The notes beneath the pieces are model-generated. The model searched no databases. It had not been told where the DNA came from and was given only the letters and a program-made list of their open reading frames with translations. Below are positions 32,144 through 63,374 of a stretch of 64,000 nt of DNA, piece by piece. Both the position numbers and the translations under genes were made by a program. The DNA is from Bryum argenteum (lineage: Eukaryota; Streptophyta; Bryopsida; Bryales; Bryaceae): assembly GCA_037043015.1 (NCBI GenBank), contig CM073330.1, positions 4,179,263 to 4,243,262 on the forward strand, in the 5' to 3' direction. The number at the start of each line of letters is the position of its first letter. Within the stretch, counting starts at the first letter, position 1.

Positions 32144-34361
32144 ATGGCGTCCATACGTGCAAACGGATTTGGTATCCCCTTTACTTTTCCTCTTGGCGAA
32201 GATGGAAAGGTCTTTGTGGACGAATTGATCTTGGAGGCAAAGTTTGGTCTTTAGATGGGTATGATGTATGTTGAACAAGAGCTTACATCTGATGTCGATG
32301 ATGTAGTGGAGACTGTTCTGCAATTGAAGAGTAGGCAAGGTGATTCTGTAGGTTGGATGCTATCAGCAGGGTCTTACAAAGTATTTGGCTACTCGAGCTC
32401 AGCATTGCAAGGATCTACAGTGTGCCTCACTCCAGCTTCTGTCACCTCCACTGTCCTCCTCCTCACCCCACCGCGGGTCTGCGCGAGTGAAGAAGATTGA
32501 GCCGCATACGAGCCAATCACGCTACTTAGTGATTCCGATGATGACATAGTTCCAACAATCGATCTAACGAGCACATGTCCGTTTCCTTTCAAACGAACCC
32601 CGTCGTCAAGTGTTGTGCGTAACAACATCAACTTGCCACTCAAAGGACAACATCAAGTAGTGTAGCTAGGCCCCGTAGTCCCACATTCTCCGTCAAACAC
32701 ATATCCATGTTAGATGCCTTGAAGGCGACTGCTGTTCGCCCCCGTTCCCAATCCGCGCTATCAGACATTAACTTTGACAATATCAGGGTCGAAGAAGTCA
32801 AGTACATCCCCACCACTTACGATGGGGACGTTATTTTCTTGCTTCCGCCTTTACCAAGTGGATTGCCTGCAACATACGGCAAGAGCCTAGACGGGATGGA
32901 CAAGGTTTATGACGGCAAACCGTGGTGCACTACCAAGACCTCTAACATCAGGAACGATTGCTCCCTCATATTCCGACGCTCCGTTTGCGCTGGACATCTA
33001 CAATGTGAAACCGACTCCTGCGAGTATCTTTTCCGAAATGGCGGTGTCCGGAACAATACACAAAGGGACGGTATCACTCATTCTCAATTCCATGTCGGTG
33101 GCCCCCCCTTAAAATCTACCTTCATGTGTAAGGTTTGTCTCACACCACCTTCCTGCTTAGCCCTCTGTAATGCCCAACTGTACCATGTTACTTCTGCCAA
33201 TCCCGAAATGCACCGTGCATTTATTCATCTCGGCCATCACAATCATCCAGTGGCTGAAGGCGTATGCCGGGACTCATTAGATCTCACGTATGAGTTCGTG
33301 GCGTCTGAAGTGTCACGAATTCCAAAGGCGACGAACTCTGCCATTCAAATGGCAGCGAGTAAGAACTTCTTAGCAGATTTTTTGTTCAAAACACCAACTC
33401 CAGGAGAAAAACATCATAGTCTCGAATCAATCATCGATCGCTTTGCCCCACTTGCCTCTCCTAATTGAAGGAACATTGTCTCTGCTTCAAGACGCCTTGT
33501 GAAATCCTCGCGTGCCCCTATGGAGGGGATTATCGACCTCAAGAAGAATCCCCACTTCAAGTTCGTGCATGATAATCGATTCCCAGGACAATGTGACGAC
33601 AAGGTGTTCATTTTCAAGATGTCTGTGGACCTGGAAGGGAGTGGGGTGGACCTCGTGAAGCGTATGCAGGCGGGAGGAAACTTCCAAGATGCATGGATTA
33701 TGTTTGACAACGTCAAACGAGTGAAAGAGTGGACGACGTTGGCATGCCATGTCTACGACACTAATTACTGCAAGGTAATGACAATTGCTTGCTGCGATAT
33801 GCAATCTGAAGATGCGGTTGCTCAGATTCTCTTTTGGGAGAACCTTAACAAGGTTATGGCCGAGAATGGCGTTTTGAATGTCAACTTCAAAGGATTCATG
33901 GCAGATAGTGCCCAAGCGAATTGGATTGCGGTCAGGAAGGTGTATGGATCAGGTAAACCCGATGAGCCTATGGAGGGACGTGAACGTACATGCTTTTATC
34001 ATTGGTCTGCAAACCTTGATAAATATACGACAAAGTACATCAAACCAGAGTTGCAATATCAACACAAGCAACTTTGCCGTGATTATAGAGATGCAAAGAC
34101 CCAAAGGGAGGCTGACGAGAAATACCATGCAATTCGTGCATGGTGGGCTACCTCTGGCGCTGCAATAGAAGAATCTTTGGCATCTTTATCAGAATGGTTG
34201 GGTTTTTGGCACCATCGATATAGGCAATGGGGCGGCCAAATGATATTGGTGAGTTCAATTATCTTTTCTCCATGTTCTTTCTTCCAACAAAAACGACACA
34301 TTGTGACTTGAATAGACACTCACAAATCATTCGGATTTGCAGGATTTGACATTGGAACAAC
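32144..34361 (+). pseudogene. GCM/MULE/SWIM transposase-like gene of element C, 5' part
   Basis: This aligns with the intact gene at 38941-42513. The N-terminal part has in-frame stops at 32252, 32498 and 32663 and a frame change before 32707. From there it is open except for a TGA at 33466-33468. It encodes the zinc-rich domain (CAGHLQCETDSC, CLTPPSC, HLGHHNHPV) and the MULE-like core ([24 protein letters not shown]). An intron (34249-34342) matches the position of the intron in the intact copy. Seven codons into the next exon the gene is cut by element B. Its 3' part resumes at 62022. Confidence 0.9.
34352..34361 (+). repeat. Target-site duplication of element B, left copy
   Basis: TTGGAACAAC here and at 62022-62031 is identical over 10 bp. 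It reads LEQ within the interrupted gene. Confidence 0.95.
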
Positions 34362-34440
34362 CAATGTGATTACGGTGTGAGCAGTGAGCGGTGAGCGGTG
34401 AGCAGTGAGCAGATTTTTACGCTCATTGAGCAGATTTCGA
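34362..34440 (+). repeat. Left terminus of element B
   Basis: It contains GTGTGAGCAGTGAGC (from 34375), five 7-bp GAGC units, then CGCTCATTGAGCAGATTT. The reverse complement of 61945-62021 has the same elements in the same order. Confidence 0.9.
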
Positions 34441-34560
34441 GGGAATATTCTGGTCCAAAAGTGAATATAAAATGATTTTATTCGAACAAAATTTCTATGA
34501 GTGTACCCCTATAACCGTGGGAATGGTGCCGGTACATAGCAATTTAGACCCTAAAACCGT

Positions 34561-35295
34561 GGTGAATTGGAAGTGGAATTTAGACCAATTGTCAAAACGC
34601 CACAGTTTGAACCCCTAAAAATCCAGGAAAACCGATTTGGTTTTTCGAGATTTCGGGCAGCTCATTTTAAGCATTTAAATTGATATTTTTGCCTAAGATT
34701 TTTACTGGACACTCCCCATAGTGTAATGTGTATGTGGTAAAATTTGCAAAGCCAAATTTTAATTTTATAACCTTCATCTAGAAATTTTATGTTTCAAGTC
34801 CAAAACGGGCAGTCTAATTTTTATTCTTTTTTATTTTTTTTAGAAATATGTTCATTACCAAATTACTATTCAAATGCCAAAGTGTCCGAAGTCAAAAAGT
34901 TTACCAATTTGACAAGGACAACCTCCAAAACTTTCAAAAACAATCTTCACAATTTCTAGTAATTTTGAAATTTTTTCTTTCAAAAATTGCCAAAAATCGA
35001 GATTTTCCCAATATTTTTTTTCCGAAATTCACAATATCATAAATGCAGCTTCTCACTCTCGATATTTTTCAGAAAAGAAATATATCATACGTGGTTCTTG
35101 TTTTACTATATGGTTGTTTTTAGACCTTCTTTTATAAAATATTTTACATGAAGGTCAAAAAGTGGAATTGGTCTCTAAAATTGTGCATGAGCATAACCAA
35201 CACGAAGGTGAAAAATGGCGGTTTTTTGGTTTTGGAGGTCGAGAAAGACCCCTGGATTTTTAGGGGTTCAGGTCTAAATTCCAATTCACACCGTG
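34561..35295. repeat. Subterminal inverted repeat pair
   Basis: The arm at about 34561-34650 (GAATTGG, GGAATTTAGACC, AACCCCTAAAAATCCAGG) recurs inverted at about 35221-35295. The ~570 bp between are AT-rich with no gene. It could be a nested miniature element or a hairpin-forming subterminal region. Confidence 0.6.
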
Positions 35296-35636
35296 GCGAA
35301 TGCCTCCATGAATCCGCTGTTTGCCTATCGATCCTTCAGGGCCGAGCCTCATTTTGAGGGCTGAATGACATTGGAAGGCACTGCGTGAATCTTTTACAGT
35401 GTATAGACAAGCTCACACTTCGGCACCCCTACAATGCCGAATTGGAGCTGAAATGAATTTTTTATTTGCCGTGTGGAGGCCGGTCCCAGCATCATCGTTT
35501 GTAAAAAATTAATCACGTTGATCAAACCGGCCGGCCAGTGAACACGTCCCATGTACCGTGACGTCGGTGAAGTAAAGAGCATGGTCTTGGTACAAGATGT
35601 CGGTGCCCATTGTGATGTTGAACTTCATGAGAGGGG

Positions 35637-35994: not shown

Positions 35995-36546
35995 ATGGGA
36001 CTCCAAAGTGAGATCTCGGTACCTACAAGAATGGAAGAGCAAGTTTGGAAGCATCTCAAAGCAAGCCGTTGGCCATCTCTCACTCGAAAATTCTTGCTCT
36101 TGCACTCTTGTGGATCAAATTCGGCCGGTTTCGATCCCTTGTATCTGTATTCTTGCACTGCGTGTGGGGAGAAAAATATCCGTGCTTGTTTGTTGGAACA
36201 TCCTCGTCTCGGTGTTGGCATTTGCATTTCGTGCAAACTCGTGTTGGATGACGTTGTGTTCACGAAGAACGCCCAGTACGATGATGAGCAATGCAACTGG
36301 TGTGGGGGAATTCAGTTTGTGATCCCGTGTGACTATTGTAACAAGGTGTGGTGTGCAGCGTGTATCGCACGGAACAAGGGAGACGACTACCTGAAGGACA
36401 TGACGGGCAAAAATTGGGGGTGCTTCAGCTGCAACAAGTATGAGATAGTGCCTCTGCAGACGATTTGGGAGGAATTCTTGGAATTCACTTCAGAAGCTGG
36501 TGAAAGCAGCAGCAGTGATTCTGATAGTGATTCCAACTACGAGTAG
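35995..36546 (+). CDS. ADD-type zinc-finger protein 1
   Basis: A 183-residue intronless frame. The ADD layout known from ATRX and DNMT3 is clear: a GATA-like finger (Cys54, Cys57, Cys77, Cys80) after which a DDEQCNWCGG segment opens the PHD-like part (Cys100, 103, 112, 115, 120, 123, 143, 146), ending WGCFSCNK. In animals this fold reads the unmodified histone H3 tail. Here it stands almost alone, with a ~50-residue N-terminal extension and an acidic Glu-rich then Ser/Asp tail. The histone-reading role is inferred from the fold only. It is the first gene inside element B's left end, followed by ADD gene 2. Confidence 0.8.
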   Translation: MGLQSEISVPTRMEEQVWKHLKASRWPSLTRKFLLLHSCGSNSAGFDPLYLYSCTACGEKNIRACLLEHPRLGVGICISCKLVLDDVVFTKNAQYDDEQCNWCGGIQFVIPCDYCNKVWCAACIARNKGDDYLKDMTGKNWGCFSCNKYEIVPLQTIWEEFLEFTSEAGESSSSDSDSDSNYE

Positions 36547-38047: not shown

Positions 38048-38631
38048 ATGGCTTCAGTCACTCTCAGTGGTCCAACCTACGATTGTTCCGCTTGTGGGGA
38101 TACAAGGTTCCAGATTTCCTTTAAGCAGCACCCGCGTCTCGCAGTTGGTCTTTGTTGTCAATGCCGTGCAGATTATGCAAAGAAGAAGTGGACAAAGGTA
38201 GGAATGTTACAAAATAGAATGTCTTGTAGACGTCCTGCTGCTTGATGTTACGGTTTCCGTTCACATCAATGTTCGCTCACCAGTAGTCTAATTCGTGTTC
38301 CACTTGTGTTGGGCAGAATGAGGTCGGGAAGGAAGAGTATTGCAGTTGGTGCTTCGATCATCACTACAATATGATTAGCTGTGGAACGTGCCCAAAGGTG
38401 TGGTGTACTGGTTGTGTATCGAACAACAAAGGTGACGAGTACGTGGTAGAGATCCAACGCTCTGCAGAGACTTGGAAGTGCTTCAGTTGTGACAACAGCA
38501 CGTACACTGAATTGACCAAGACATGGGAAGAGTTCCTTGACACAGCAAAGCACTACGACCCTCCACTATCACCATCCATTTGGGAAGATGTCACAGAGGA
38601 ATGTAGTGAAGATAATAGTATCCGTTGGTGA
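38048..38631 (+). CDS. ADD-type zinc-finger protein 2
   Basis: Two exons, 38048-38197 and 38317-38631, join in frame for 154 residues. The intron has a GTAGGA donor and a GGGCAG acceptor. The first exon holds the GATA-like finger (CSACG, then LCCQC). The second holds the PHD-like part ([24 protein letters not shown]). The linker sequence before exon 2 differs from ADD 1, but spacing is the same, so this is a diverged sister. It ends in an acidic tail. The gene runs toward the transposase gene, tail to tail. Confidence 0.8.
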
Positions 38632-38940: not shown

Positions 38941-41900
38941 TCAAGTGCGTAGAACACATTGGACAATTCCACCTAGGAGAAGTCGCTTGATCTCGTTGAA
39001 GCTAAGAGTCGGAGCGTGGACAAACCGATCTCTCTCTCGATCAAGGCCACAAACCACACGGTAAATGTAGTACAGGTGCTTGCAATTAGCATAGGATCCA
39101 CGGGACTTGAACTTGACGTACATGCTTGTAAAGCTAGGGCAAGTACACTCCGGAAATGTACCAATGCTGACCTTGTATTTTTGAGCATCTTGTTCAGGAC
39201 CCTTCTTAGAAATGAAATCGATCACGGCCCCGAGTCCCGGGCTTGGCACCAACGTAATCCGTGTTAGCTGGACATCGAGTAGCATTGCCGATTCCCACTT
39301 CTTTAATTGCTCAGTTGCCACCCTCTTTGTAGCGTTGCGACGACAGGGACGAGAGCTACGTATGTTGAGGAACTTATCGGGTTTCTCCGGTGCCGGAATG
39401 CTTGCTGCAATCGCCATGTCATTGCCAAACTGCCTCTCGCTTGGCATAGGTGGTCTCTGTTGCAGCTGGAATCCTGCCTCCTCCAGAGTCAAAATCTCCC
39501 GCGTCGTGAGGTTAGTCCCCTTTAACACCGGCCAGATACGTGGGACCTTGGGCGAATCAGGGAACCACCTCCGCCGCTTCCCCGCTACGCACCCTCCGAC
39601 ATTGTCTGCACAGAAATAGAAGAACTGTGCATAATTCTTGTTCTTGGAGCGGACATGCTTCACGCCGTGGTATGCAGGAGCAGGGTCACCATTTTGAAGC
39701 CCGCGATTACACTTTCGATTGGAATCGGGAATTATGGCGGTACAAATCCGTGAACCCACAGAAGGCAAGCGGCGAATGTGCCACATCTTTGGTGAGCAGT
39801 CCTCTTCCAAAACCTTTGTGACGTGCTCCACTGGTTGTGATGGAACATGTGGTATCTCCTCTACCTCATGGACATCATCGCTGTTGTCCTCGTTATCCTC
39901 GAGCCGAATTGGAGTTGAAGGCGAACATTGCTGCCGGGTCTTCATTGTCTTTGGTTGCGAAAAGTTGACCTTGTCGAACCGGTGAGAGTCGTCGTCGCAG
40001 CCCGGATCGGAATCGAGCCTCCGCTTCGTGGATCCAAAAATCTCTTCTCCTGCAAACGATGCCGCTCCACTGAGGAATTTCTCCGCTCCAGGGATGAGGT
40101 CCATTGCCCGATATACTGACTTCAAATTACCCGTCGTAGTAGCAGTGCGCGTTGCCGCGCGGAACCGCAACTCCTCTTTGGAAGGACCAGTACCCGATCC
40201 TCGACCTTTGTCGTAGGCATTGTACCTAGTGCACTGAACAAAGGCACGGCAATAGTCTTCAATGGTAGCTTCGAAAATGTTATCACAAGCTTTGCCAGAT
40301 TGCTTGCTCCATGAGGCATGCACGGTCTCTGACAAATTGCACATCGGCATCTCCGCTCTTTGTTCCTCCGTAAGGTCCTGCATTATGAAATCGAAGTCGA
40401 TGTGATGATGAATTGACAAAAAAACACGAATTAAATGATGAGACGTGATAGATCGTACCATGTTCATGTATCCGCCCCACTGCCAATATCGAAAGTGCCA
40501 CCAGGCCAACCAATTGTCGAGCGCACGGATGTCAGAGTCACTTGCTGCTCCACTCGTAGACCACCAGGAACGGATCGCCATGCATCGAGATTCCGCTTCA
40601 TCAGCTGTGCGCGCGTCCTTGTACTGGGTGCAGATTCGCTTGTGCTCGTCTCGAAGTTCAGGCTTAATGTAAGAGTTTGTTGCTCTTTGCATACAAGTAG
40701 TCCAATGTAGTAGACATGAACGTTCCTTATTTGGCATTGGAACGGATTTATCACCTGAACCGTAGATCTCTCGGACAACATTCCAGTTAGCTTGCGCACT
40801 GTCAGCCATGAATCCCGCGAAATTAACGTTGTGAACCCCGTGCTCAGCCATGACAGCATTTATCCCTCTCCACAGGTATGATTGAGCATCTTGGGTTTCA
40901 GACATCATATCGCATATTGCAATCGTCATCACCTTCCGATACGCAGAGTCGTAAACGTGGCAGGCAAATGTTGTGTACCGTTTGATGCGCTTGACGTGGT
41001 CGAACATCACCCATGCATGCTCCAGATCCCCTCCAGGTTGCATTCTCTTAACGAGATCAACGCCAGATCCCGGCCCGATCTCCGACATTTTGAAGACGAA
41101 CACCTTGTCGGTCTTACTACCTTGGCCAGGAAATCTGTTCTCCTGCACATAGGGCCACCGAGAGGTGCCTCTCAATTCGCACACTCCATCGATTATGCCC
41201 TTCTTTCCCATCCTTCTGAAGTGGGACACATTGTGTCGAATAGTGGGACTCGTGAAGCTCTCAAACTTGAACATAACATCCTGCATTTCAGATTCCATTA
41301 AGAATGATTGGGACTCGCCATCCTTCTTCAATAGGTAATCTCCAAGGAACTCCGTGCTTGCAGACAATGCAATCGCAGAGGGTGAGGCCTTCGGTGATCT
41401 TTCAAGCGAACCCTTTAACAATTGGTCACGGAGCTCTAAAGACTTCCTACAGGTACCTTGTCCTACCGGGTGAGAGTGGTATCCAACGTGGATACATGCC
41501 CTGGTTGTATTTGTATCACCTGTGACATAATACATGATAGCCGAGCATTGCAGAATACAAGTCGGTGGTGCCTTGCATATAGCGCACATCAATGTTGACT
41601 CAGAGTCCGGGCATTTCCCAAGGAACGGCTTCTTTGCAAAGCCATCCCACAACTTCTCATTAATCTCGTCGGCTCGGCCTGGCCTGTGAAGAAATCCGCA
41701 CTGTGGATTCTCACATCGCAAATGACCAGCACAAGAAGCAGTGCGGAACGTAAGACCATGGTCATTTTGAATGTTACGAGTCTGCAAATGGCACCATGTG
41801 TGACCGTCGAATTGCTTGTCCATCCCTGACAGTTTCTTTGCATAGTTTGTCTTAGCGTCCACAGATGGGGGCGGAAACTCGAAAATTACATTGCCGTCAT

Positions 41901-42513
41901 ACTGGGGCGGCAAGAACTGAACAGATGAGTACTGATACATACCTAGATCTAACCTACTAAGTTCGCTCTTGGCCCCCTTCCTAAACTGCAGATTACGTAT
42001 GCATGTGACAGCACTGACGGATTCCTTGTTTGATGGTGGGCGCGGAGGCTTCTTGCTTAAACTCTCGGACTTAGAAGGAGACTGTGTTACCGACATAGTC
42101 CGATTAGTCTCGAATAGGTGAGAATCTTGGGATGCTAGTGCATCGGTCTCTTTCGGAGACTCAGCATCACTATCATCTAGCTTGATAATAGGAGTCATCG
42201 TTGCACATGACGGGACGACCTCACACTCCGACACGGACGTTGCAACTACCGGTTTAGGTTGGATTAAAACACCATGAACACGATACTGCAAGGATTGTAA
42301 AACCCAGAATATATCTTTCTCGACAAAGGGCTCCATGTGCACAGTATAAGACAAGTGGCCGACATCATCCATGACTTCTTCCTCTAGGAAGATCGTATCT
42401 AATCCCAAATTGAACTTTGCAGACAACATTCTAGCGGTCACGACAATGCGACCATCAGATTGCGGTAGTATTCGTAAAGGGGCTCGCCCAGCATCTACTC
42501 GAATTGTGGCCAT
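38941..42513 (-). CDS. GCM/MULE/SWIM transposase-like protein of element B (intact)
   Basis: The ATG is at 42513. An in-frame 81-bp intron (40458-40378) matches the intron of the element C copy, giving 1163 residues. A basic, Ser-rich region follows the N-terminus. Residues ~265-355 hold a zinc domain ([31 protein letters not shown]) like the WRKY-GCM1 fold. Residues ~470-680 look like a MULE DDE core: [11 protein letters not shown], then [13 protein letters not shown], then a CLLHW equivalent of the usual Cys-x-x-His. A GRF-like Cys cluster is possible near 905-960. At ~1094-1117 is a SWIM finger (CTC, then CKH). It is the best candidate for the element's transposase; a domesticated regulator is the alternative. 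It is divergent from the methyltransferase gene. Confidence 0.82.
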
Positions 42514-43083
42514 TCGTGACAATCAGAAGACGCAAATAAGGCATGCAACAAGCACTACTTAGTCGAGGACGTATTTGATTTGAAACAGGTAAAAGTTTTG
42601 AACAATAGTAGCCGACGGGGATAATAAGTGCTATTAGTGGTAGTACTATGAACCAACGAAGTGGAGGCTCCACTGACATTGATGGACCAGGTAACATACT
42701 GTATGGACGTCACTCTTGTCATCTGACAGATCTTAGAAATCAGCATGGGCCGGCAAAGGTATTAAATGGGCTACGGATGAAATGTGATACAATGGCTGAA
42801 TAAATCAAATCGGCGTATTCATTTATGGCCATGTATGTAAAATATAAAATATTGATGTCATACGGATGAGGACGGCTACTTTGAAGTGTAAATGAGAATT
42901 GTCTAAAAGAGGCGGCGGTTTGATAGAAGGACGCCTCGTTAATAATAAGAAAACAGCGCCCCTTTTTTTCATGGAATTAATGGCTTTAGTTCACGTCGTG
43001 TCAGGAATTCATATTTGGCATCTCTTAGAGTTAAAAATTGGAGCAACTGCCGGTCTTTGCAAATAAGGAGGTATGTCTTAGTG
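42514..43083. promoter_or_regulatory. Shared promoter region between transposase and methyltransferase genes
   Basis: The two largest genes of element B are transcribed away from this 570-bp gap. I see no clear TATA box or repeat array. The same head-to-head order occurs in element C, where the gap has been enlarged by tandem repeats and a Tc1 insertion. Confidence 0.6.
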
Positions 43084-46000
43084 ATGCCGCAAAATACTGC
43101 TGATTATGATCAGAATAACAAGAGTGCTAGAGGTAGGAAGCGGAAAAAGAGAGTACCTGGGGGACGCTTGTATTTCTCTAAAAAGCGATCGAGTGCGAGG
43201 CAGATGAAGAACAAAGACAGTCGGGGCAGCTCAGTCGATCTAGGCGATACAGCGAAAGCTTTACTTCCGATTTTAGACAACTCTGGATCGGATTCACTTA
43301 TGGGGCGAGCTCGAACCACCTACAGCAGGCGCAAGAATCAGGCAAGACCGCTCATATTGTCTTGATGTATGGAATCAATTGTCAGTAAAGATATGCTAAT
43401 TTGAAAATGGTTATGCAGGGTAGTGAGGTAGGCCTTGAAAACAGTCTCATTATGGAGAATCACAAAGATGAAACAAGTAGCAGCGAGGACGATGACGAAG
43501 GTAAGTTGCATTCAAAGCCTTCTCAGTCAGGAGCAAGTCGGCCTTATATAAACTTGTAGATTTGTTGTTAGTTGAGGATGATTGGTTGTAGCAAATTTCA
43601 ATTTCGATATACGTGTTTACCTTTGACAAATTCATCGCTGAGGATGGAGCACTGGAATCTACAACCCATCCGGGAACGGCGGCCCATTCTCTTCGGCATC
43701 GCTGAATCGAACGGCCAGCTCAGTCGCTCTGTTCACCTGCGTCGGCGCACAAGCGAGCGCGATATACTCGCGTCAGCCTCCATTGGTCCTTTGCCGAAGT
43801 GGACCTGCACCTCTTTCACAGCCGACCCCGTCGTTGAATCCCAGCCGACCTCGCATTTTCTTCAGCCGACGTGGTGAATGTGTCGAAGCCGACCCCGCAC
43901 AGCCGACCTCGCACTGAACTCGCACAATCTCGAAGCTGACCTCGCACAGTCTCGAAGCTGACCTCGCACAGTCTCGATGCTGATCTCGCACAGTCTCGAA
44001 GCTGACCTCGCAGTGTCTCCTCTTTCACCTTGTGAATCTGGCAACCGACCTAGTTGATCTCGAAGCCGCAAAAGGCGGCCAAACGTAGCGCAAAAGCGGC
44101 GGCTCAGTCCGAGAGGTGGTTTAACTTCAGACGCCGTCCGTCGTCTTCGCGATTGAACCACGAAGTTGAAGGAGCCGGAGAGAATCAGAGCACCGTCGCC
44201 AGATTCACATCGTCATCGTGTTGCCAGTGATCATCACGTGTCCTTCGAAGCCGAAGACCGTTTCCCGCGGCGCATCAGGAAGCCACCGCAAAATAGAAGG
44301 TCTGAGCGAGGTCGCCGTTCGAGGCAAACCCTAGGTAGAGGACAACATCGCAGAGGTTCTAATGGAGTTCTTGAATGCAGTACGCATATTTATCGAACTT
44401 GAGCTATTGGTTTTAGTCTGATGTGTTTGGTTTTCGTGGCTCTGTAGGTTCTGAGCGAGGATTGACGGTCGGGAATTAGTAGTCGAGTGACGTGGTTACG
44501 TGATTATGGGCGACTTAAAACGAATCGTTGACTTCTATGCAGGTCAGGCAATGACGCAGGGGTCGCCGCTCGATGAAGACCCTGCCACGTCGAAGGATCC
44601 ATCTTTTGAATCCCCTGGATCGGCAGAGGACGGCGGAGCAGGCTTACCTGGAGCGACTACACCTCTCCCACGTGGAGTCGTTTGTATTCACGAAACGCCA
44701 GATAGTACATCTGGTAAGAACTTTGATATCCATTTCGTCTTTTTACTGTTGTTCTTGTAAATTGAGATCGCAGCGTATGTTGTCGCCAATCGTGGCTGCG
44801 AGGGCCAGCAGTTCTCGTCGGGTGGAAGCCCCAGTCCTACCGGACAGTAGGAAGAGTTGGCACTGGATATGTTGGCACTGGATATGTTGGCAAGCCCATT
44901 CATGAAGAATGCAAAGAGAAGCGATACGAAGTAAGAATTGTAGAATTCAGCAAATCATCGAGTGTTTCGAGGCAAGTTGGGCTCACGGTTTTTCCAAGCG
45001 CATCTCCTTTGGAGGGTCACCGCGCCGCCCACCAGAACTCACAATCGCAGAGAATTCAGTGAGAGGCCGTCGCGGCAATTTGAGTTTACCATCCGAATCG
45101 CTTCGAGTGAAGCACGAGGGAGTAGTATGCAATTGGCATACGTGATTCTCGTGTCAAAGTAGCGGACTGCCGCTCATGCTCAGGTACGAGATTTCCTTAT
45201 GAGCAACAGTTTGGACTTTTTAGGAGGATAGTATTTTGACATTAGTGATGAATGTGGTGAATGTGGTGGATCATTGGCAGCGCTCGGTTGGTTGCCGGAT
45301 GTGAATCAGGAATTTGCGTTGCAAAGTAAACTTCGAGGCCCTGCGTGCTCTCAGCTCCCTGTGCTATTTATGTGGATTGGCATCAGATCAGTGAATGTCT
45401 GAGTCCTTTAAGGATGAAAATCGAAAAAGGTGTTCGACTTGGTTTTGTTCAGCAATTGTCCCAAAGACCCGGCGTGCAAGCTGCGTTGCGAGTACGGGCT
45501 TGTTCGCTGCAAGATGACGATAGCACACTGGAGATGACAATAGCAGCAAAGCGAACTCCATGGCCAGAGAAGGTGTCTCCACCACCATCGCCACCGACAC
45601 CGAGCTCAAGAGAACCATAGGCGGACGAAGACGGGGCAAGCGAAAAACAACAACAGACTTTGCTACCATTGTAACCAACAAAGGAATGCCAAAAGTATGA
45701 AAACAAGTGTATAGGCTTCCTTACTCCATCAAGGCGTCCCAACTCCCTCGCTGCGGCGTCCCAACTCACTCGCCGCGGCTGCGAGTCCCGGCCGTCTAGT
45801 GCGCCTTGAGCCGAGCGTGCCCGTAGCGTCGTGTGGCCCGGCGTGCTTGTGCGCGCTGCGCCGTGAGCCCCGGCGAGCCCGATGCGTCGTGAGCCCCGCC
45901 GATCCCGTTGCGCCATGAGCCGCGGCGTGCCCACTGAGCTTCTGCAACTCTTCGAGTCCCGGCGAGCTCGCTGCCACGTGAGCCCCGGCGAGTCTGCGAT

Positions 46001-52000: not shown

Positions 52001-55000
52001 GCATGTGGGGGATGTGCAGAGTTAGCGCTCGTGACACTTGCTAGAGTTGGGAAAAAGTTGGTGTAAGCCAAGGTGAGCTAGCAAGGGTTGCGACACCGTG
52101 AGCCTGTGTCCAGGCGTGCCCGTGTCCCGGCGTGCCCGTTGCGCCGCGCCCGTTGTTCGCCGAGAGCCCCGGCGTGCCCCCTCCGCCTTGAGTCGCGGCC
52201 CCGGCGTGCTACCTGATTTGTGAGTTCTTGCTTGCCACGTGCAATGCGAGTCCCGGCGTACCAGCTTGGACCAGTACCAGCTACGGCGCGAAGTACCCGC
52301 TGCGTCTTGAGCCGCGACGTACCAGCTTGGACCCGAGTCTCGGCGTGGCCATTTCGACAAGAATGCACGGGTACCCGTAGCGTCCAAAATCCCGGCAGGC
52401 TTGCGTCGTCGAATTACCATCCAGGTCAAAATTTCCATCTTTACTACCATTTCTCCTTTGATGCATGCGTTTAAGGTTGCATATCGTGTGAAAATGCATC
52501 AATACTTTAATTTCCTTACACTTTCGTCAGTTAGAAGTAACGGCGTGGAAGATAAGTACTTTCCGGTTGAATAAATGTGCATAGACAGGTTACATCATGG
52601 GATATCGCAGTTGCTTTTGCGCCTTTTTCGGCACTGTTTATTTTCAAGATTTGAAGAAAACAACATTACAAATCATAAATCCCCGTAGAAATTCTTGCAC
52701 TGATGATTTGTTCGATTGTTGGAGGTTGACATTGCAGGTGCCGGGATTGTGGCCATCGTGATCTCGTGACTGACTAGCAGACTTCGACGCCGGCACTGGC
52801 GGACATAGTCTTTGCGCCGGCGGACCCATCATTGGGCCGGCTTACGTCCATCTGCAGCCGGCATACACCCTCATAGCGCCGGCGGACCACTCCCAGCGCC
52901 GGCACCGGCGGACATAGTCTTTGCGCCGGCGGACCCATCATTGGGCCGGCTTACCTCCATCTGCAGCCGGCATACACCTTCATCGCGCCGGCGGACCACT
53001 CCCAGCGCCGGCACGACAAACCAAGCTGGCTCACGCCGGCAACGGCGGACACTATTTCAGCGCCGGCGGCTCCCTCAAGTGGCCGGCTTACCTCCATCTG
53101 TAACCGGCGTATAACTTCAAGGCGCCGGCGGAGCCCTCCCGGCGTGGGCTCATCTGTCCCAAGACGCGGCGCAGCAAGTCTTGGCGTCCCGGCGAACCAA
53201 GTACCCAATTCCCAAGTCCTTGCGTTTGAACGTGCCAGCGTGTTTGCGTTTCAGCATCCCAAGTCCCGGCGCAGACCATGCGTGGAGAATCTTTTTTTCC
53301 GCGGATCAACCGTCGACACCTTCGCCGAAGTCCCGAGCGGACCCTTACTTTCGTTTGAGGCCGGCGCATATGAAATTTGCACCGGCGGACCGCCCCCTCG
53401 CGGCGGCTCGCCATGCGTTTCATGTCGCGCCGTCACGCAGCGACCAATATCTCGTCGTGCTGGCTTGTCCCCCTCGCGCCGGCTTACACATCAACGCTGG
53501 CACGGGCGGTGTTCGTGTTCGCGCCGGCGGATCCCTCAAAGGGCCGGCTTACCGGCTTGTGCTTCCGGACATTAACCTCTTCGCGCCGGCGGAGCCCTCC
53601 CGGCGTGCCGTCTTGCAAAGCTTTTGCTGCGTTTCGAATTCCGGCGTACTGGCACCGTCTCGCTGCATTTCGAGACATGACGTACTCGGGGCCGCTCCGT
53701 CTCAAGTCCGGACGCACCCGCAGCGAGAAAAGTCCCGGCGGTCCCCGCTGCGTCCTTGCGTTCTGGGCATTCGTGCTGCGTTTTGAGTCATGGCATGCGT
53801 TCGGAAAACGCATTTGACCTCATCGCTTAGTTCGGGCAAATCCTTACATTATCTTATCTGTTTTGCAGATGCAGGTGAAGAAGATGATCAGGGGATGAGG
53901 CGCACGGAGGCAAATGAGGCGATTGCTGCGATCGACGGCGATCCTGCTGACGAGTTCCCGGCTTTAGAAGAAACGGATGAGGGTGCACCTACCGAAGATG
54001 TGCTTACGGAAGCTGATGTCACCAAGGAGGTTAATAGCCTAATCACTTCGGAAGCCGCCGTGAGTGTCTCCAAAATTCAGAAGTTGCGATTCCAACCGGT
54101 TCACAAGTCTCGGATGGCTATCCCGCTTTGTCGAATGGTGGGGCTGCCGGTGGTGAGGCCAGCCATGAAATCCGATATTGCAATGCTCCAAGATCACTTT
54201 CGTGATGTTGGCTACGTTGAAGGGCAAGGCGTGTTTTATGTTTCTCTCGAGAACGATGTAAAAGAGAAAGATAAGCCGAAGACAGTTGACGTGACAGAAG
54301 ATACGATCGCGTCGTGGAGCCCGAATTGGGTTAAGGTGAATGCTGAATTTGAGAAGTTCTTGCTGGTTGACCCAGACCTAGAGAAGTTTTCGAACAAGAT
54401 GTTTCACGTCTGGGACGGAAACCATCGTTTGCAAGCTTGGTACCCATATATTAACGAAGAGAAGTCTCACGATCTCGCCTGGCACTTTAGTGTTGATTGC
54501 ATCGTGCTTGAGTTGAAAGGCGACAACATGGCGGCATTGACCGCACTTCACGAGATCAACTGGTAAGCTTTATTCCTCCTACCTTACAGTGATTTGCACC
54601 TCGACCCGTCCAAATCTAAACCTTGTCGTCTGAATGTTTTCAAAATCTTTCTGAAAGTGTCTTAGTTGGTTTGATAACTAATAGTTTTTTTACACACTTT
54701 TGCAGGCGAAACGAGAACTCTCATGTTCAACTGAACTTGGTACACAAGCTGTATCGGGTTCAGAGGATTGGACGGCAGGATGTCTCGTATTTCAGGGGCA
54801 TAATCACACCAGAAGAAGAAGCTGCTTCGAACCTGAAAAACCTGACAAAGTCCACCTGGTTCAAGCTCACTGTCAACGCCTTATGCAATGTCTTATACCA
54901 GGTATGACTTCCTTCATTGCTTCTGCTAGCTTATTTCTGGGCTTTTTCTTATGTGTGAATGTTTTGCAGACCGAGTTCGCTCAGGCCGCGGCCAAAGCTG

Positions 55001-58000
55001 CTTCAGACTTCAGGCGTGATAGCGTCTTAGGCAAGTTCACCGCAACGACGATCCATGACGCAGTCAACCAAGCAGTGAACGACAAGAAATCCACGACATT
55101 GAGTGAGTTAAGAAAACAGTTACCTATATGTGACCCAAAAAATACTGACCGTTTTTTGGAGCTTGTGAAGGAGCATTACGAGACATTCCGCGAGGTTGAG
55201 ATGTCGCAGGAGAAGCTCTTCTATTTTGCAACTTCAGCCATGGATATAGACACTAAGGTGCTTTGGTTGAATCGGTGGAATCAGTCCACAAAGTTTCGGG
55301 AGAACCAGCGTTTCCCGAAACTCGGTTTCACAGAACAGCAATACCTTCACTTCCTCAACAAAGCCACTTGGTGGTCTCAGGTAAGATTGTTCGATGTCCC
55401 ACTCTTTGATGTTTAATTTTCTAACATTGTAATGTCTTTACGCCCTTGTATATGCTTCTAACTTAATGTTGTGCTTTGAAATTTGTGCAGTTGTCCAATG
55501 CCGTGACGAAGGAGTTTGAAGTGGAGATGAGCATGATGAACCAAGTTGTCAATTATAATCCTCTTGGTGCTCCGGAGCCCATCGACACGGTCACGGAGTA
55601 CGTTGAGAGAATGAGGATAGCGCTGTGGGACACTGCATTCTACCGGGAGTTTGGCATCAAAGACAAGGATCAGAAAGAAGGAGGGAAGGGCGTGCACAAG
55701 AACAACCCCCCGGAGAAGCAGCCATACTTTGAGAAGGCGACGTCTCGAGTGCTTTATCGATACGTAAAGCACGTGCTTCTTCCCGCGAAGGCTATTTCAA
55801 AGACACCTACTAGCTTCGTGAATTACACGAATACGGCGGACGAGAAGTGCATGTTCACCCCTGGTCAGTTGAAAGACTTCGGCAAGCAACATTATGTCGC
55901 ATGTGGTTGGTACATGGACATGCCGAAGGGCCAATGCCCAGAGTTTGAAGAAGAAATTCTATCTAAGATCGAGCCGGAGCTTCTCAAGCTAAAGTCCAAG
56001 ATAGTTCTCGAGGAGACGCAGCCCGATTCCTCCAAGAGTCGAAGGAAGAGGAAGAACCCGCCTGCCGTCTTGACGCCACCCATGGAGGTCCAAATTCCCT
56101 CTCCTGTGTCTCAGGCACTTGTTGGAATTGCAGATCATGCAGGCGAAGAAGTCCTTATCATCGATGACGAGTTTGAGGACACGAATGCATCAAGACGGGG
56201 GCGCTTGGTTAAGAAACCTCGTCGTGATTCTCCGTCACCTTATTATGATAACTCGAAGTCCTGCGATTCTATGCTCCCCTCATCCCTTCGAGGAATGATG
56301 CTGGACATACATCCAGTTCTGGCACCGACCGGCGCTCGGGTAAAGCTCATCAACGACACCCTGGTTCGCTGGTGGGATGTGAAGGCGATGGGTGACCCTT
56401 TTCCAGAGGAGTATGAAGAAACGAAGACATTTCTAACAGAGGTACAACTTTATTTAAATCGGAATTCTTTAACAAGCCTTATGAGTCTTAACATTTGCTC
56501 ACTTTCGATGGCATGGCAGGTATCTGCAGGACGCCGTTTATACTTTGAAGGTGTTCTTCAAGTCGGACGTGCTGGCGTCGATCTGATGCTTGCGGACTAT
56601 CCTGACGCCCTACGCGTTCCGGGAGTATCCGATCCCGAGCACCAAATTCCACGATGGAATTCGAACCAACCGAATTATTTGAAGACTATCGCCGAATTCG
56701 CCTTCAAATATCTGCATGATGACGGGGCTGTAGTCATTTTCTACCCAGATTCATATGCAGTGCGGAAGAAGATTGAGGCATTCACCGTCAACTTCAACCT
56801 CAAGATTGCACTAGAATGGAATGTTCTCAACTCTCTCCCGCTGTGCAGCCCATCGCATCCAGCACGATTGGTAAGATTTTGTATCATTTCCTCGCTCCAC
56901 CATTGCTTTGACAGGGGCTTCTGAGTCGCCGGCGCTTTGAGGGACAGCGGTCGGTGCCGGCGGTCGCCATTTGCCTTCGAGACCAGCAAATTCGGTTGCG
57001 TTAACCCTCGCCGACCATCGTTAACACCCGCGCACAAGTTGTCCGCCGGTGAGCCTTCCTGGCGCCGGCTTAGTCATCTGAGCGAAGGCATCGGCGGATA
57101 CTCCCGGCACCGGCGGATTTTAACTCATCACGATCTGAGCTGCACCCAGCAGCTGAAACGCCGGCGCCGGCGGATGGAGCCTGGCGGCCGGTGAACAGCA
57201 TCAACGCCGGCACCGGCGGGCCCTGGCACGCTGCCGGTGACCCCGGTCTGTCTGCCGGCGGACCCTGCCAGGCACCGGCGTACCCTGCCGCGCACCGGCG
57301 GAGTGCTCACCGGCGCCGGCGGACCCTGCCTGGCACCGGCGGAGTGCTCACCGGCGCCGGCGGAGCCTGCCTGGCACCGGCGGAGTGCTCACCCTTGCCG
57401 GCATGCCCAGCCTGGCTGCCGGCGGTCTCCTCACCGGCGCCGGCTAGGTCTGCCTCGCAGCCGGGAGTCTCCTCTCTTGCGCCGGCGTGCGCTGGCTTCC
57501 TCTCGCCGTGCTTCTCACTGGCGCCGGCTTGCACATCTTCGTTCCAGGATCACTACTTTGAAGTTACGGCTTGCCCTGCGTTGCTGCTTGCGAATTGCTC
57601 CACGGCGCCGGCTGACACCTCAGTGCCGCTGGCTAAACCACCACGGCTCCTCTCTCACATATCCTCGTGCCAGTCACTTCAAAACAACTTCAAGGGCCTC
57701 ATTTGTTGTGGTTGTTGCTGTATTTGAGCATAGGCATGAACTTATATTCTTGTAAAGCTGTTTGCGTTTGTCAGCAAATTAATCATTAAGGCTGACTTTT
57801 TTTGAATTTGATTTGCAGACTTACATCTCCAAGGCCGTTGTTATGGTCAGAGCGCTGCCACCTGGTACCCGACGTCAGCCTATCCGCCTCGATATTAAGC
57901 TCGATCCCCATACACCTGGCGTTGACTTGAATACACAAGACATGTTGTTCAACGCTGTCGACGAGCAGAATCTTCTTCGGAAATTGGATGGAAAACCATG

Positions 58001-58695
58001 GAGAGGTCCGAAGGAGCGCTCGGTGCTCTTTTTCAAGCCACTCATATATGGGATGTGCCCCGAGAGAGGCGTTGTGATGGATTTTGGAGCTGCAACAGGT
58101 AATCGCTTGCATCCACATTCATTTAGGAATTGGAACGTTTATGTGCTTGCGTTCATTTGAATTATTGAGCCGAAATTACTTTCATTGACTCTGTGATGTC
58201 GACTATATCCGCAGGCGCATCTGTTCGGGCTGCGCTCTCCCTAAACCGCAACGTGTTGGCACTCGAGGGAGACCGTGAAATCTTCAACGAAATCCTACTG
58301 CCACTTAGCATTCCAGCGCTCCCGCTTCCAAGCACACCGGACACAATGAACGCAGAGATTGCTGGCGAAGATTCACCAGTCCATGCTGCAAAGCGCGATG
58401 GTTTTTGTAAGTGACTTTGCATTATTTGGATTTGAGTTATGCAATCATATGGTATATTATTCTAATCAATTTGTTTTGTTGCTTGTGCAGTTTAGTGAGT
58501 GTATTTGACGCATTTTCTATGCTGCCAATTAGTCCTCCAGTATCGTTTACGCTTCCTTTATACGCCGAAGGCCTTGCAGACGCCTTTGCTAGTGTTGTAT
58601 CAGACTCCTCTCCGGATATTGTCCCGACACGTCGTCGGTACAATCCAGGAGTGATGCGTTACTTAGACTTAAGTGCCTCAGAATCAGATTCATGA
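43084..58695 (+). CDS. ParB-like domain fused to a beta-class DNA methyltransferase-like domain
   Basis: Ten predicted exons join in one frame of 1204 codons: 43084-43341, 43419-43500, 53869-54562, 54706-54901, 54970-55380, 55491-56441, 56520-56870, 57819-58098, 58215-58406 and 58496-58695. The first intron looks GC-AG; the second is 10.4 kb and full of satellite DNA, and its junction continues an acidic run. The N-terminus is basic. Residues ~195-330 resemble the ParB/sulfiredoxin fold (VRP near 210, DGNHRLQAW near 296). A central ~450 residues are unrecognised. The C-terminal part has LADYPD (~890) where beta-class enzymes have DPPY, then DFGAATG (~1068) and LALEGD (motif I). Order IV then I fits the beta class. 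Motif IV is degenerate, so activity is uncertain. Bacterial and phage ParB-methylase fusions exist. Confidence 0.72.
43870..44020. repeat. 22-bp minisatellite
   Basis: About five copies of a ~22-bp unit containing CTGACCTCGCACAGTCTCGA, with related CCGACCTCGCA units at the edges. Confidence 0.85.
44500..44715 (+). other. Possible exon within the large intron
   Basis: An open stretch begins at an ATG (44506), continues through a potential acceptor (GCAG near 44543) and ends at a good GTAAGA donor near 44714. The product is unremarkable, rich in Pro, Gly and Ser. It may be a cassette exon of the methyltransferase gene or a chance frame. Confidence 0.25.
45730..50800. repeat. 5-kb GC-rich satellite
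   Basis: The core phrase GAGCCCCGGCGTGCCCG recurs throughout, mixed with GCTGCGGCGTCC, GCCCGTTGCGCCGTGAGC and GCGAGCTCGCTGCCACG. Higher-order units of several hundred bp are visible: a phrase containing ACCACCGGCGACCTCG recurs near 48140, 48405, 49230 and 49755. The repeat leaves several frames open on both strands, which yields long spurious reading frames rich in Arg, Gly and Ala. Confidence 0.9.
51460..51890. repeat. ~55-60-bp tandem repeat
   Basis: About five units share GGAGCTAGTGTTGGGGC, followed by TCACCAYGGGGACTC and AAGGTGAGTCCC. Units are degenerate at the right end. Confidence 0.75.
52080..52390. repeat. Outlying block of the GC-rich satellite
   Basis: GGCGTGCCCGTGTCCCGGCG and AGTCCCGGCGTACCAGC phrases resemble the main satellite, separated from it by 1.3 kb. 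Confidence 0.65.
52790..53790. repeat. GCCGGCGGA repeat block at the end of the large intron
   Basis: Two ~107-bp units (about 52807-52913 and 52914-53020) share TTTGCGCCGGCGGACCCATC and CATCTGCAGCCGGCATACAC. More degenerate GCGCCGGCGGA motifs continue almost to the splice acceptor at 53868. Confidence 0.85.
56930..57630. repeat. GCCGGCGGA repeat block in the 948-bp intron
   Basis: The motif of the 52.8-53.8 kb block recurs, with a ~42-bp unit (57265-57400) containing GGCACCGGCGGAGTGCTCAC. It fills the intron 56871-57818, whereas most other introns downstream of 53869 are about 70-150 bp. Confidence 0.85.
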
Positions 58696-60048
58696 GTTTG
58701 CTGTGTTTGTGTTATTCGTCATAAATTGGCCATCTATATACTCATATCTTTTTTGTTATGCACTACATCTTGAATCAGCTCATTTTGGAGTGATTTTAAG
58801 TTCACTTTTTTATGTGACAGCCATCCTCTACCACCGTTGCGAAGAAGTTCAAAATTATCTATTTCAACTACAAAGGCATTGCACAAGCAAGTCGAGTTTC
58901 ACGCCGTAGACGTCATTAATCGAATCATGCTAGCACTAGCGTTAGAAGCAGCATTGGATGTTATTTAGATATCATCCTTGCTCTTAATGCACACTCTTAC
59001 TTTACGTAGGGAATTTGTGATCGTCATAGCAAATTCACTGCTTCATTCACATGATAGTTTTAAATCATGTATCGATTATTTTGAATTGTGCTTGTGTATA
59101 ATTACAATAAAAGTACTGTGATTGCAAATCACGATCTGATTACTGCATTCCGGTCCGCCCGATGCATTTTTGCCCATCAACTCTGGTCTAGGGCCCCGCA
59201 TATATGAACTCATGCATGTGAACATCCAAGAAATGGCGATTCCTTTGAACTGGGGTTGCGAGTCTTTTCGCGCCGTATATTTAGAAGTCTTATGCGCACA
59301 CTGCGCCTTCAACAGCTTACTCTCGCAGGTATATTGCACTTCGCACAATGACATTAAGGGACTCGTGGCGGGACAAACCGAGACGCGCTACTGTTCTCGG
59401 GCTGCCTTGCGCCGCGCGGCTCCTGCTGGAACTCGCGGCGGAACAAACCGGGACGCGCAACGGATCTTGGGCCATCTTGGGTCTAAGCCAACAAAAATAG
59501 GGGTCTACGATTTCGATCCCTACACTCGAAAAGCCCAAATCCACAGGCGTTTCTCCCCCTCTCCAGCGAAACATAATTTCATAACTCGCACCGGGCCACT
59601 CAGGGACTCGTGGCGGGAAATATCGGGATGTGGGACACCGCAAGACTTATGGCGGGGGTAACCAGGACGCGCTACGAGACTCCTACTGGATCGTGCTCAA
59701 GGTCTTCTACAGGAACTCGCACCGTGACTTGAAGCAAAACCCCCAACGGAAGTCCAGTTAAGAACTTCTGTTTGATTTCTCTCAAAATACAACGGAAGTC
59801 TAGTTTAGAGCTTCTGTTTGATTTCTCTCAAGATGCAATTCGATTCCATGCACATTTATACCATGATGAAATAGTTTACAATGGTGATCAACACCCTTGT
59901 TGCAATTACATTGCACCATCTTTTCCAGCCTTAACTCACACAAAAATACATCATGGCTTAACTAAGTATTTCTTGCAACGACACACATTGGTATCACCAT
60001 ATTATAAACATGCGTTCTTGTGTCCAAACTATTCCACCTTTCAAGGCT
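58696..60048. other. Spacer with degenerate repeats
   Basis: The left half is AT-rich 3' flank of the methyltransferase gene. At 59360-59680 a ~95-bp unit with ACTCGYGGCGGRACAAACC and GACGCGC repeats three or four times. No gene is recognised. Confidence 0.5.
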
Positions 60049-60554
60049 TCAAGACGTACTACCATCGATTTCATCGGGCGCAATATATCCCTTCTGAAAT
60101 GCCGCCTCATTTAGCAAACTATGCATATGTTCGGGAAAGCATACAAAACAAGTCCAGCAGATGTCTCCTGCCTCTATCACTTCTTCGATGATGTCGTCAC
60201 CATAATTACGAATGATACAGGTCGCGCACCAACATAGTTCGCAGCAACTGCAAACGATGAGATCGTCTGTCTTTCCACACCAATAGCATGTATCTACATC
60301 CACCGCCTACACATAACCACTTCCAAATCATAAGCACATTACAATTAAACGAACTCGAACCTCACCACCTTTTTACGAGAACAACAAGACGTATTTACAT
60401 GCTTCTGAACGTCGATGCTTCTCTCGATCCGATGCTCCAGAAACGCCACGCATACCACACACATTACAACGTCGAGTTCCGCATGAAAATCCAGGTCGTC
60501 CAAACTTTCTATTTCTTCCCCGCAAGCTGTGCATGTCAGTGTCCTCTCCGCCAT
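60049..60554 (-). CDS. ADD-type zinc-finger protein 3
   Basis: Two minus-strand exons, about 60554-60366 and 60306-60049, join in frame for roughly 148 residues. The first starts at ATG 60554 and holds the GATA-like finger (CTACG, MCVVC) right at the N-terminus. The second holds the PHD-like part (CYWCG, CSCCELCWCATC, CWTCFVC). Intron position agrees with ADD gene 2, between the two zinc-binding parts, which supports common descent. The tail is short and acidic. It converges on the methyltransferase gene and lies about 1.5 kb inside the right end of element B, so ADD genes lie near both ends. Confidence 0.75.
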
Positions 60555-60559
60555 TGTCT

Positions 60560-61944
60560 GAATAAGTACCTGCAAATACAAACTGAGCTTCTAAGTGAGC
60601 CGGACTGCTACAAACACATCGTCAATCAACCATTCAGTATCTCAAGTGCGAGTAATAAGGTTCTACGACCTCTGTCCACAATTCACCATCCACCACAACA
60701 TCCCTACTGCGCTCGCTATAGTTCTAAAAGATTCTATGTCGAGCAGCAACTGCGCTTGCGGCTTCACTCCTCTCCCAAATATCGTGCAACTAAATACACG
60801 AAGAATGAGAAGAAGTCGAGTTCAAATTCAAGCACTAGTAATGCTGGATTACTAACATCAACAACGCGAACCGATGAATCCCCCAAATGAGTCCCCTTAA
60901 CCGCTCCACGGAACTTAACGCTGGCACATGCTATTGACCTGCGTATGGTACGCCATATGTGCGACATTGACATGTCGGAGATGAGCATGGGAGAGGTGAC
61001 TGTCACCTCGATGCATGCTTCGAGGGCGACTGACATCATTGTGGCTGACGGCTTCCTTATCATAGCATTTATTCTTTGATTGTTATAAATAATTTCTTAC
61101 ATCGATCCCTACATCTTTTGCATGTACATCAGATTTCTGCCATTATTTTTTAAATTATTCTCCCCTAAACAATACTCGATCAGATTTCAATTGATTGTGA
61201 GGTGACAATGCATCTTTTCGACATTTGAGCTATTTCTATCTGCCTATGATTGCTTACATGGAACAAGCCGACTTGTTGTAAGCCCTCGACTCGGGCTCCA
61301 TAACTTGCATCCTCTGCAGACTTGTCCACAGGACAAAATTATCAGATAACAAACAACTCCGAACTCAAAATTAACATTCACGAATGAACTAATTATTTGA
61401 CCTACCTTTGTCCAAATCGTCTCATCCTTGAACTCCACATACAATTCACACATTCCCACTCTTACCCTAAAACCTACGCCCTCACTGTTCTTGATCATCG
61501 TTACATATCACCAGATCCAACACTAGATACCAAGTGCTAAACACGGCAAAACAAACACTCGTGATTGTCACTGTGTTGATATTTGAGTCTGAGGTACTCT
61601 TCAAGAAAATAGAAGTAGCACGCAACGTCGGAGATACACCTCCGGCAGCGTGGGCAATACAAGAGAACACGCCTTGCAACCCCTGGACCCTAAACTAAAA
61701 ATCTCGTCTGATTGATGACGTCAGCCCTAATTCGGTCCCTCCATTACAATTTCCAAATGACCTGAACCACTAGCCGGTGCCACGTAGTACTAATGTTCGC
61801 TATGCAACACTCTATTGTCGAGATGATTTTGGCCTCTATTACCACGGATTTAGGACTTCCCACGGAATTGCACACCACTTCTTTATCTCTTTTTCCAAAA
61901 TTTGGATACACTTTCACGACTTCCAAAGGTTAAAATACTCATTA
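60560..61944. other. Right-end region of element B without recognised gene
   Basis: Mostly AT-rich with short frames. A minus-strand frame near 60764-61063 has no recognisable motif. A CCTAAATCCGTGG motif (minus strand, near 61850) matches those inside the left end. Confidence 0.4.
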
Positions 61945-62021
61945 AAAATCTGCTCAATGAGCGGAAAAGTCTGCTCATTGCTCATCGGTTTCTGCTCACT
62001 GCTCACACAGCTGCAATCCTG
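61945..62021 (-). repeat. Right terminus of element B
   Basis: The reverse complement reads 13 variable bases, GTGTGAGCAGTGAGC, further GAGC units, then CGCTCATTGAGCAGATTT, mirroring the left terminus. Confidence 0.9.
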
Positions 62022-63374
62022 TTGGAACAACGTGCAGACATGCCTTCATGTAATCTAGCAGAGTCCATTCATCACAAGTGGTTGATGCAGTCCGGCAATA
62101 CCATGGAATGCATTTATGAAGCAACGATGGACGACATGATTCGAGCGTTTATGCAGATCACCAACTATCGTGAATGGCTCAAAGGTGGACAAGGAGGGAA
62201 GGGCCCTGACAAAGCAGCTTTGATGCTAAGGGCAGCAACAAACAGCGGCGATCCTAAACTCATTGCGGCTGCCATGAAGTCATTCCCCGGGGCTGGGGAT
62301 CTCCCTAATCATCCAATTATTCTTGAAGGGGCTGAGATTTTTGGTTCCACAAAGAGGAAGCTCGATTTACCGGCCGGATCTGAGTTCGATTCACATCGCC
62401 CAGATAAGGTAAACTACTCCATTCCCAAGCCAAACACTAGGTCAACCAAGCAACGAATTGAGGAGTCTCTCAAAAGCCCCCAACACCATATTCCTCACAC
62501 GACAAGGGTGATGGAGTCGAACTGTGATCCCAAGCAATGGCACATTGCTCGACTTCCCAAGTCTTCGGGGAGGCAGTGTCAAGCGCTTCAAGCCATATCA
62601 AGGGAGGCGTGTAGAACGAAGATTTTACAAGGGGCACATGGCACTCCAGCACCAACCTATGCAGGCATGAAGAAAGATGTTAGGAAGGGTCGCAATGTTG
62701 AAGCGGAGTTCTTTTTCTGCCCGGACGACATTCATCGTTGTGTTATGGGTAGCAAAAGACCATTTGTTTTGGATTGGCCCATCGTCCCTCTATCTTGGCC
62801 CGTGAAGTTTGGAACCAATTTGACACGCGAAGAGGTTCTGAAGCTCGAAGATGCCGGGTTCCAGTTACAACAACAAGAAGCATTGTCACCCCGGCAAAAG
62901 TTCCAATCTCAGGTGAATATTCCTATACCACGTTCGCAATTCCATGCTCCCGACCACATGGATGCTCATCCCAGTACCAGGTTTGGAAAGAAGTGTCGTC
63001 GAAGTCCAGATGCCCCTAGCGCCGATCACAAGAATAGATGGATGAGTACGGGCCACATGAACGGATACTACATCACTGGCGTGACTGTGGTTCCGAATCC
63101 GGGGTGTGGTGTGGTCATCACCATCGTCAATGACAAAGACAAGGCATACCTTGTTTCAGTGTGCACTATTCCACAATGTACTTGTGAAGACTTTGTAGGT
63201 ATGAGCTCTAAGGCAGCGAGTAGGAAGTGGGTGCCTTGCAAACACCTTTATTATGTTTTCCGATACTTATGTAAGATGAACTATGAGACAGAGAAGTTCA
63301 TTCACCAGCCTACATATTCCTACAACGAGGTCATGCAAATTCTAGAGCTTGCTGGAATTGTTGAGAAAGAGTGA
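62022..63374 (+). pseudogene. GCM/MULE/SWIM transposase-like gene of element C, 3' part
   Basis: The 10-bp duplication copy begins this part, which is open to a stop at 63372-63374 and aligns with the last ~450 residues of the intact copy. It includes a [13 protein letters not shown] segment, a possible GRF-like Cys cluster (CQAL, EAC, FFFC, HRC) and the SWIM finger (CTIPQCTC, then CKHLYY). The frame is undamaged, unlike the 5' part, but is severed from its promoter by element B. The long frame starting upstream at 61902 is a read-through from the terminus of B. Confidence 0.9.

Follow-up and report, generated by a model that had tools for sequence, protein, structure and literature searches.

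A giant Mutator-like DNA transposon of a probable land plant, with a putative ParB-methyltransferase gene and ADD genes, inserted in a related giant element

Known giant DNA transposons and the locus under study

Giant DNA transposons of 15 to 30 kb have been published for algae (PMC12477816, PMC6431247), among them the 16- to 20-kb CACTA elements of a red alga, and the Pack-MULEs of one study measure at most 7 kb (PMC6431247). Sola1-1_Ec32, a giant Sola-1 DNA transposon of 21.5 kb from the brown alga Ectocarpus, encodes, on the strand opposite its transposase, a 1104-amino-acid protein with ParB-like and N4/N6 DNA-methyltransferase parts, in a host with a haploid phase (PMC12477816). Here, we describe a 27,660-bp element that resembles it in several of these traits, element A (positions 34362 to 62021, forward strand), found in a window of 64,000 nucleotides (C10:4179263-4243262) from the genome of a probable land plant. 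Unlike element A, Sola1-1_Ec32 has a Sola-1 transposase, comes from an alga rather than a land plant, and has no ADD gene in the excerpted description (PMC12477816). A first-pass annotation of the window had called the size of the insert far above the norm for the plant lineage, a statement that has to be qualified in view of the published algal lengths.

Two other groups resemble element A in part. The KDZ giants of algae and fungi likewise have transposases of more than 1000 amino acids, accessory genes, and lengths of up to about 30 kb (PMC12477816). Mutator-like elements (MULEs, including MuDR) and their IS256 kin share with it the length of the target-site duplication (8 to 11 bp) and an RNase-H-like DDE domain with a helical insertion, and in ISCth4, as in element A, variation between the two ends is mostly confined to the outermost 13 to 14 bp (PMC6446971, PMC7780238). 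Many Mutator groups also possess SWIM fingers; the main text of the source concerned contains neither the word bryophyte nor the word Marchantia (PMC6446971). Among the titles and abstract openings listed from the open-licence literature, no report appeared of giant DNA transposons with a ParB-methyltransferase in mosses or any further land plants, or of any with ADD genes.

Insertion site and ends of element A

Element A interrupts the transposase gene of another giant element related to it, designated element B, and is flanked on both sides by an exact 10-bp duplication, TTGGAACAAC (34352 to 34361 and 62022 to 62031). This sequence occurs nowhere else in the window, where 0.16 occurrences would be expected by chance and two were reached in 1 of 100 shuffles. 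Both parts of the host gene, left and right of the insert, align with the A transposase (43.9% over residues 135 to 692 and 37.9% over residues 699 to 1188). The most decisive evidence is that an uninterrupted relative of the host, at C7:4394672-4408750, contains TTGGAACAAC once, with both flanks continuous, as an empty site. The earlier proposals that the host gene is split at 34361/62022 with a 10-bp duplication, and that the insert lies in the transposase gene of its own relative, are borne out by these results.

The 5' end (34362 to 34449, forward strand) consists of a 13-bp tip, CAATGTGATTACG, followed by GTGAGC repeats and the terminal inverted repeat; the 3' end (61934 to 62021, reverse strand) has its own 13-bp tip, CAGGATTGCAGCT as read on the other strand, again followed by the terminal inverted repeat. 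While these outermost 13 bp are unlike each other, the inverted repeat extends over 75 nucleotides (34375 to 34449 and 61934 to 62008) with 83% complementarity. GTGTGAGCAGTGAGC, described previously as marking termini equidistant from the duplication, does begin 13 bp inward of both copies and forms part of this repeat. On the basis of the matched ends, the 10-bp duplications, the repeated copies described below, the empty site, and an open transposase frame, we conclude, with a probability of roughly 0.9, that element A is a giant, multicopy terminal-inverted-repeat DNA transposon. This class (class II, DDE) is characterized by terminal inverted repeats that occur in pairs, a target-site duplication of fixed length, and a related empty site. 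Just inside the 5' end, at 34604 to 34900, a repeat starts that constitutes a repeat family of its own (38 of the 42 genome matches listed, at 90 to 93%).

Copies across the genome

The genome searched amounts to 258.8 Mb in 25 contigs, 11 of which, of 7 to 44 Mb each, total about 258.4 Mb. Moss assemblies with 11 chromosomes show the same pattern, and together with the Ceratodon relatives this suggests that the host is a moss. The queries comprised 239 bp from the 5' terminus and 542 bp from the 3' terminus, and the best 40 of 171 and the best 40 of 94 candidate places, respectively, were scored. The numbers of copies are consequently minimum figures; an end without a partner may have one among the unscored places, and a missing gene match in a copy may reflect the scoring limit. 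Among the 80 scored ends, 21 opposite-type pairs lay within 120 kb, one of them reusing a 5' end, which yields 20 elements; the remaining ends comprised one same-type pair and 37 unpaired ends. Flanks were read for all 20 elements: 15 had 10 of 10 identical bases, two had 9 of 10, and one (C1b) had an 11-bp duplication, CCCAAGAAAAG, read by eye in the flanks. No duplication was found at the other 2 of the 20 pairs, C1d (43.0 kb) and C1g (17.9 kb). By comparison, the best of 380 wrong pairings of flanks reached 6 of 10. Further intervals with these ends and duplications of 8 to 10 bp, which the first-pass annotation had suggested looking for, are thus present as at least 20 paired elements, 18 of them with duplications of 10 to 11 bp, excluding the contrary outcome that no second copy of the paired ends exists.

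The largest contig, C1 (44 Mb), holds 22 of 40 and 16 of 40 of the scored A ends, against 6.8 expected, the places counted being the best-scoring ones rather than a random sample; B ends are not enriched there (4 and 5 of 40). C1 could represent a sex chromosome or be heterochromatic.

Transposase and superfamily placement

The A transposase gene (38941 to 42522, reverse strand) is free of stops for 1193 codons. It probably contains one in-frame intron, near residues 689 to 715, which was read through in the alignment and fold prediction. Candidate catalytic residues are D508, D574, and E732 (the last assigned by eye), and C603xxH606 is also present. The predicted fold is RNase-H-like, contains D508 and D574, and finds its best solved-structure match in the IS256-family transposase ISCth4, as would befit a DDE transposase with putative catalytic activity. 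The duplications, of 10 to 11 bp in 18 of the 20 elements, fall within the 8 to 11 bp typical of Mutator elements.

Sequence profiles gave a different picture. The Mutator transposase profile PF10551 recognized none of 46 relatives of the A transposase, and PF00872 recognized one, weakly (E-value of 0.034), which, along with the far larger size of element A, sets it apart from MULE and IS256 elements; elsewhere in the same genome, PF10551 had 52 matches, none of them in the window. In hhalign comparisons, A scored no better against nine local PF10551 proteins than shuffled or reversed controls did, with a thin profile (effective number of 1.55). The SWIM profile PF04434 matched 2 of the 46 relatives (best E-value, 6.8e-5), many of which end before the region concerned, and a C-terminal CxC...CxH pattern was seen, by eye only, in the window A transposase. 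For the latter, Pfam searches with single window proteins returned only chance matches, as did a PDB sequence search with the A transposase profile (one match; E-value of 0.29). KDZ elements, whose target-site duplication is 8 bp, differ from A with its 10 bp, and no KDZ family appeared among the Pfam matches of the 46 relatives at an E-value of 1.

In summary, element A resembles Mutator in fold and duplication length, and no Mutator sequence profile recognizes it. Its apparent way of working is that of Mutator/IS256 transposons, whereas the sequence profiles do not support membership; we therefore call it Mutator-like, a giant element from what is probably a land plant, carrying an algal-type ParB-methyltransferase cargo and ADD genes.

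Cargo genes and their possible role

The gene for a ParB-like and putative DNA-methyltransferase protein (53790 to 58406, forward strand) has seven exons, GT-AG introns, and 1051 stop-free codons, the last exon being provisional. The structure predicted for the window protein includes a ParB-like fold, and it is in the fold only that the ParB likeness is visible: 0 of 60 ParB-exon sequences match the ParB sequence profile, and a Foldseek search with the ParB model gave no match at an E-value of ≤0.001 (best, 1.0e-2). The methyltransferase profile PF01555 was above the cut-off only in a relative, P0046, the window A protein matching weakly (E-value of 0.048); in PHROGs, P0046 matched methyltransferases, and the two window open reading frames had no match. 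A viral origin was rejected: neither the transposase nor P0046 had a relative in viral contigs (searched with few peptide patterns), and phage records contained none of P0046.

ADD1 (35995 to 36546, forward strand) is an open reading frame with an ATRX-type ADD zinc finger (match to ATRX ADD structures; E-value of 2e-14). A tblastn search with ADD1 revealed a second (38078 to 38541, forward strand) and a third (60139 to 60300, reverse strand) ADD-like region, both present in the same places in the copy of A on C5. Across the genome, ADD1 had at least 152 matches (150 candidates scored), part of which involve the second ADD region, and in 16 of the 18 duplication-bearing A copies, that is, all except C1e and C1f, a match lies about 0.9 to 2.6 kb from the 5' end. 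Many other matches to ADD1 have frames of roughly 153 codons and are located away from paired A elements, many of them on C1, which suggests the existence of a further ADD-carrying family.

We infer that the A transposase, as an RNase-H-like DDE enzyme near IS256/Mutator in fold, binds the GTGAGC-repeat ends and would have inserted the element via a 10-bp staggered cut; the target in this case would have been the transposase gene of the related giant B, cut roughly 12 codons upstream of the glutamate that is the candidate catalytic residue. The ParB-methyltransferase might recognize and mark the DNA of the element itself, the ADD proteins might read histone H3 tails, and marking and reading together could counter or steer silencing by the host. 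We propose this role for the cargo tentatively, at odds somewhat short of even. A serious competitor, which we likewise hold to be possible rather than probable, is that element A represents an ordinary deep Mutator (MULE) branch, the unusually large cargo of which has no role in transposition. However, ADD1 and the ParB gene hold similar places in most A copies, and the ParB-methyltransferase recurs in element B and in the published algal elements, which suggests that the cargo is of use to the element. In the most far-reaching version of the self-marking proposal, A and B would constitute a superfamily of their own among the giant DNA transposons of land plants, linked to IS256/Mutator by fold only and equipped with a chromatin kit. 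This kit would comprise an ATRX-type ADD protein as histone reader and a DNA methyltransferase of bacterial type, guided by ParB, by which the element would be marked and protected against silencing; this version seems to us rather unlikely.

Size of the mobile unit

The 18 duplication-bearing copies of A measure 14.2 to 40.2 kb. Matches to both transposase and ParB gene were found in 12 of them, all of at least 22.8 kb; two had a ParB match only, and four (14.2 to 22.1 kb) had neither but retained ADD1. A complete copy on C5 (23,124 bp) has the gene order of window A, with stops within the transposase, and 12.9-16.4 kb of this copy is common to four of the other 3'-end regions compared (9.2-12.9 kb lies outside the comparison). 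In the 35.2-kb copy on C2, the inner 3' end lacks a duplication and the outer one shows 10 of 10 matching bases, indicating that this copy holds the 3' end of another A. The middle part of window A (45449 to 51047) is a 5.6-kb, G+C-rich tandem array, with up to 73% G+C; an adjoining stretch (50810 to 52095) is 98.6% identical to part of the copy at C7:15.2 Mb (L010).

The wide range of copy sizes (14 to 40 kb), the additional 3' end in the C2 copy, the tandem repeats in the middle of A, and the enlargement of window B itself by insertions would all fit a transposon that was originally small and grew through subsequent nested insertions, in which case giant size would not be a property of the mobile unit. 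We nevertheless regard this as improbable: the smallest copies (14.2 to 14.9 kb) are without transposase and ParB matches, all 12 two-gene copies reach at least 22.8 kb, and part of the middle of the C5 copy recurs in others. For these reasons, the large size seems to be a feature of the gene-bearing unit of A. Finally, although the analysis rests on a single assembly, a joining of unrelated contigs at both borders of A is hardly credible, given that the same two ends pair in at least 20 elements, 18 of which have duplications, that the empty site in the sibling copy agrees to the exact base, and that a false join would need to mimic both a 10-bp duplication and a family-typical end pair. Judging from the sequence, element A has the appearance of a genuine mobile element whose size and cargo are unusual, and not that of an assembly error.

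If the reading of A as a giant Mutator-like transposon holds, giant DNA transposons with ParB-methyltransferase cargo would extend beyond algae and be abundant in a land plant, an enzyme of the Mutator-like kind could move units of more than 20 kb, and a transposon would have acquired an ATRX-type ADD reader. Transposons with epigenetic tools of their own would then become a directly testable idea in a laboratory moss, and the findings would fit a published suggestion that giant elements are tolerated in life cycles whose haploid phase is long.

Host element B and nested element C

Element B (592 to 64000 and on to 64341, reverse strand) has terminal inverted repeats that begin at 592 on one side and, 341 bp beyond the window border, at 64341 on the other, and is flanked by TCCGCAGAGT at 582 to 591 and, outside the window, at 64342 to 64351. 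It measures 36.1 kb without A and its duplication and 16.3 kb without both A and a second insertion, element C. Its transposase gene, of which the 5' part occupies 32144 to 34361 and the 3' part 62022 to 63374 (forward strand), is interrupted not only by A but also by a stop codon of its own (33466 to 33468); this stop and the giant-element context of the gene had been overlooked in the first-pass annotation. A diverged relative of the ParB-methyltransferase gene lies at 21975 to 25215 (reverse strand; 30 to 44% identity by tblastn). With 40 places scored per end, at least 35 distinct paired B elements were found, including that of the window; they span 5.3 to 55.2 kb, the window pair 63.8 kb, and two further pairings reuse an end. 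In 14 of the 35, the distance is 13.3 to 15.7 kb, and the core of B is about 14 kb. Duplications were checked in 10 of the 34 nonwindow pairs, nine being perfect (9 to 11 bp) and one matching at 8 of 9 positions; 90 wrong pairings scored at most 1, compared to 9 to 11 for perfect pairs.

The B copy at C7:4394672-4408750 (14,079 bp) is 97.8% identical to window B over 14,450 aligned bases. Because it is continuous at the insertion point, with a single TTGGAACAAC, the simplest reading of the alignment is that A entered B after the window and C7 copies had separated. Element C (976 to 20729) is missing from the C7 copy as well, and so is 29902 to 31520, which contains a Tc1/mariner-type transposase open reading frame (30150 to 30848; DDE_3, E-value of 1.1e-18) and is, given this absence, probably another small insertion.

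Element C itself (19,754 bp, forward strand) is a giant hAT-type transposon nested in B. Its ends begin with CAGGGTTGTCTT, and the flanking 8-bp duplication (968 to 975 and 20730 to 20737) reads CTCGTAAC and CTCGTAGC, which agree at 7 of 8 positions. It encodes a DUF659 protein (PF04937; E-value of 7.1e-41), a domain that we take to be linked to hAT, and the assignment follows from the combination of an 8-bp duplication with a hAT transposase domain. Within 45 kb, at least 14 pairs of C ends were found, including that of the window, six of them 19.5 to 21.0 kb apart; the duplication was a perfect 8 bp in all 7 pairs checked out of the 13 nonwindow pairs. One of these C pairs lies between paired B ends at C8:15152719-15185692. 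Four open reading frames of C (5924 to 6637, 9747 to 11165, 13591 to 14835, and 17090 to 17710) look similar by eye and have no Pfam match, and a fifth (18257 to 19834) is protein-kinase-like (PF00069; E-value of 3.1e-11).

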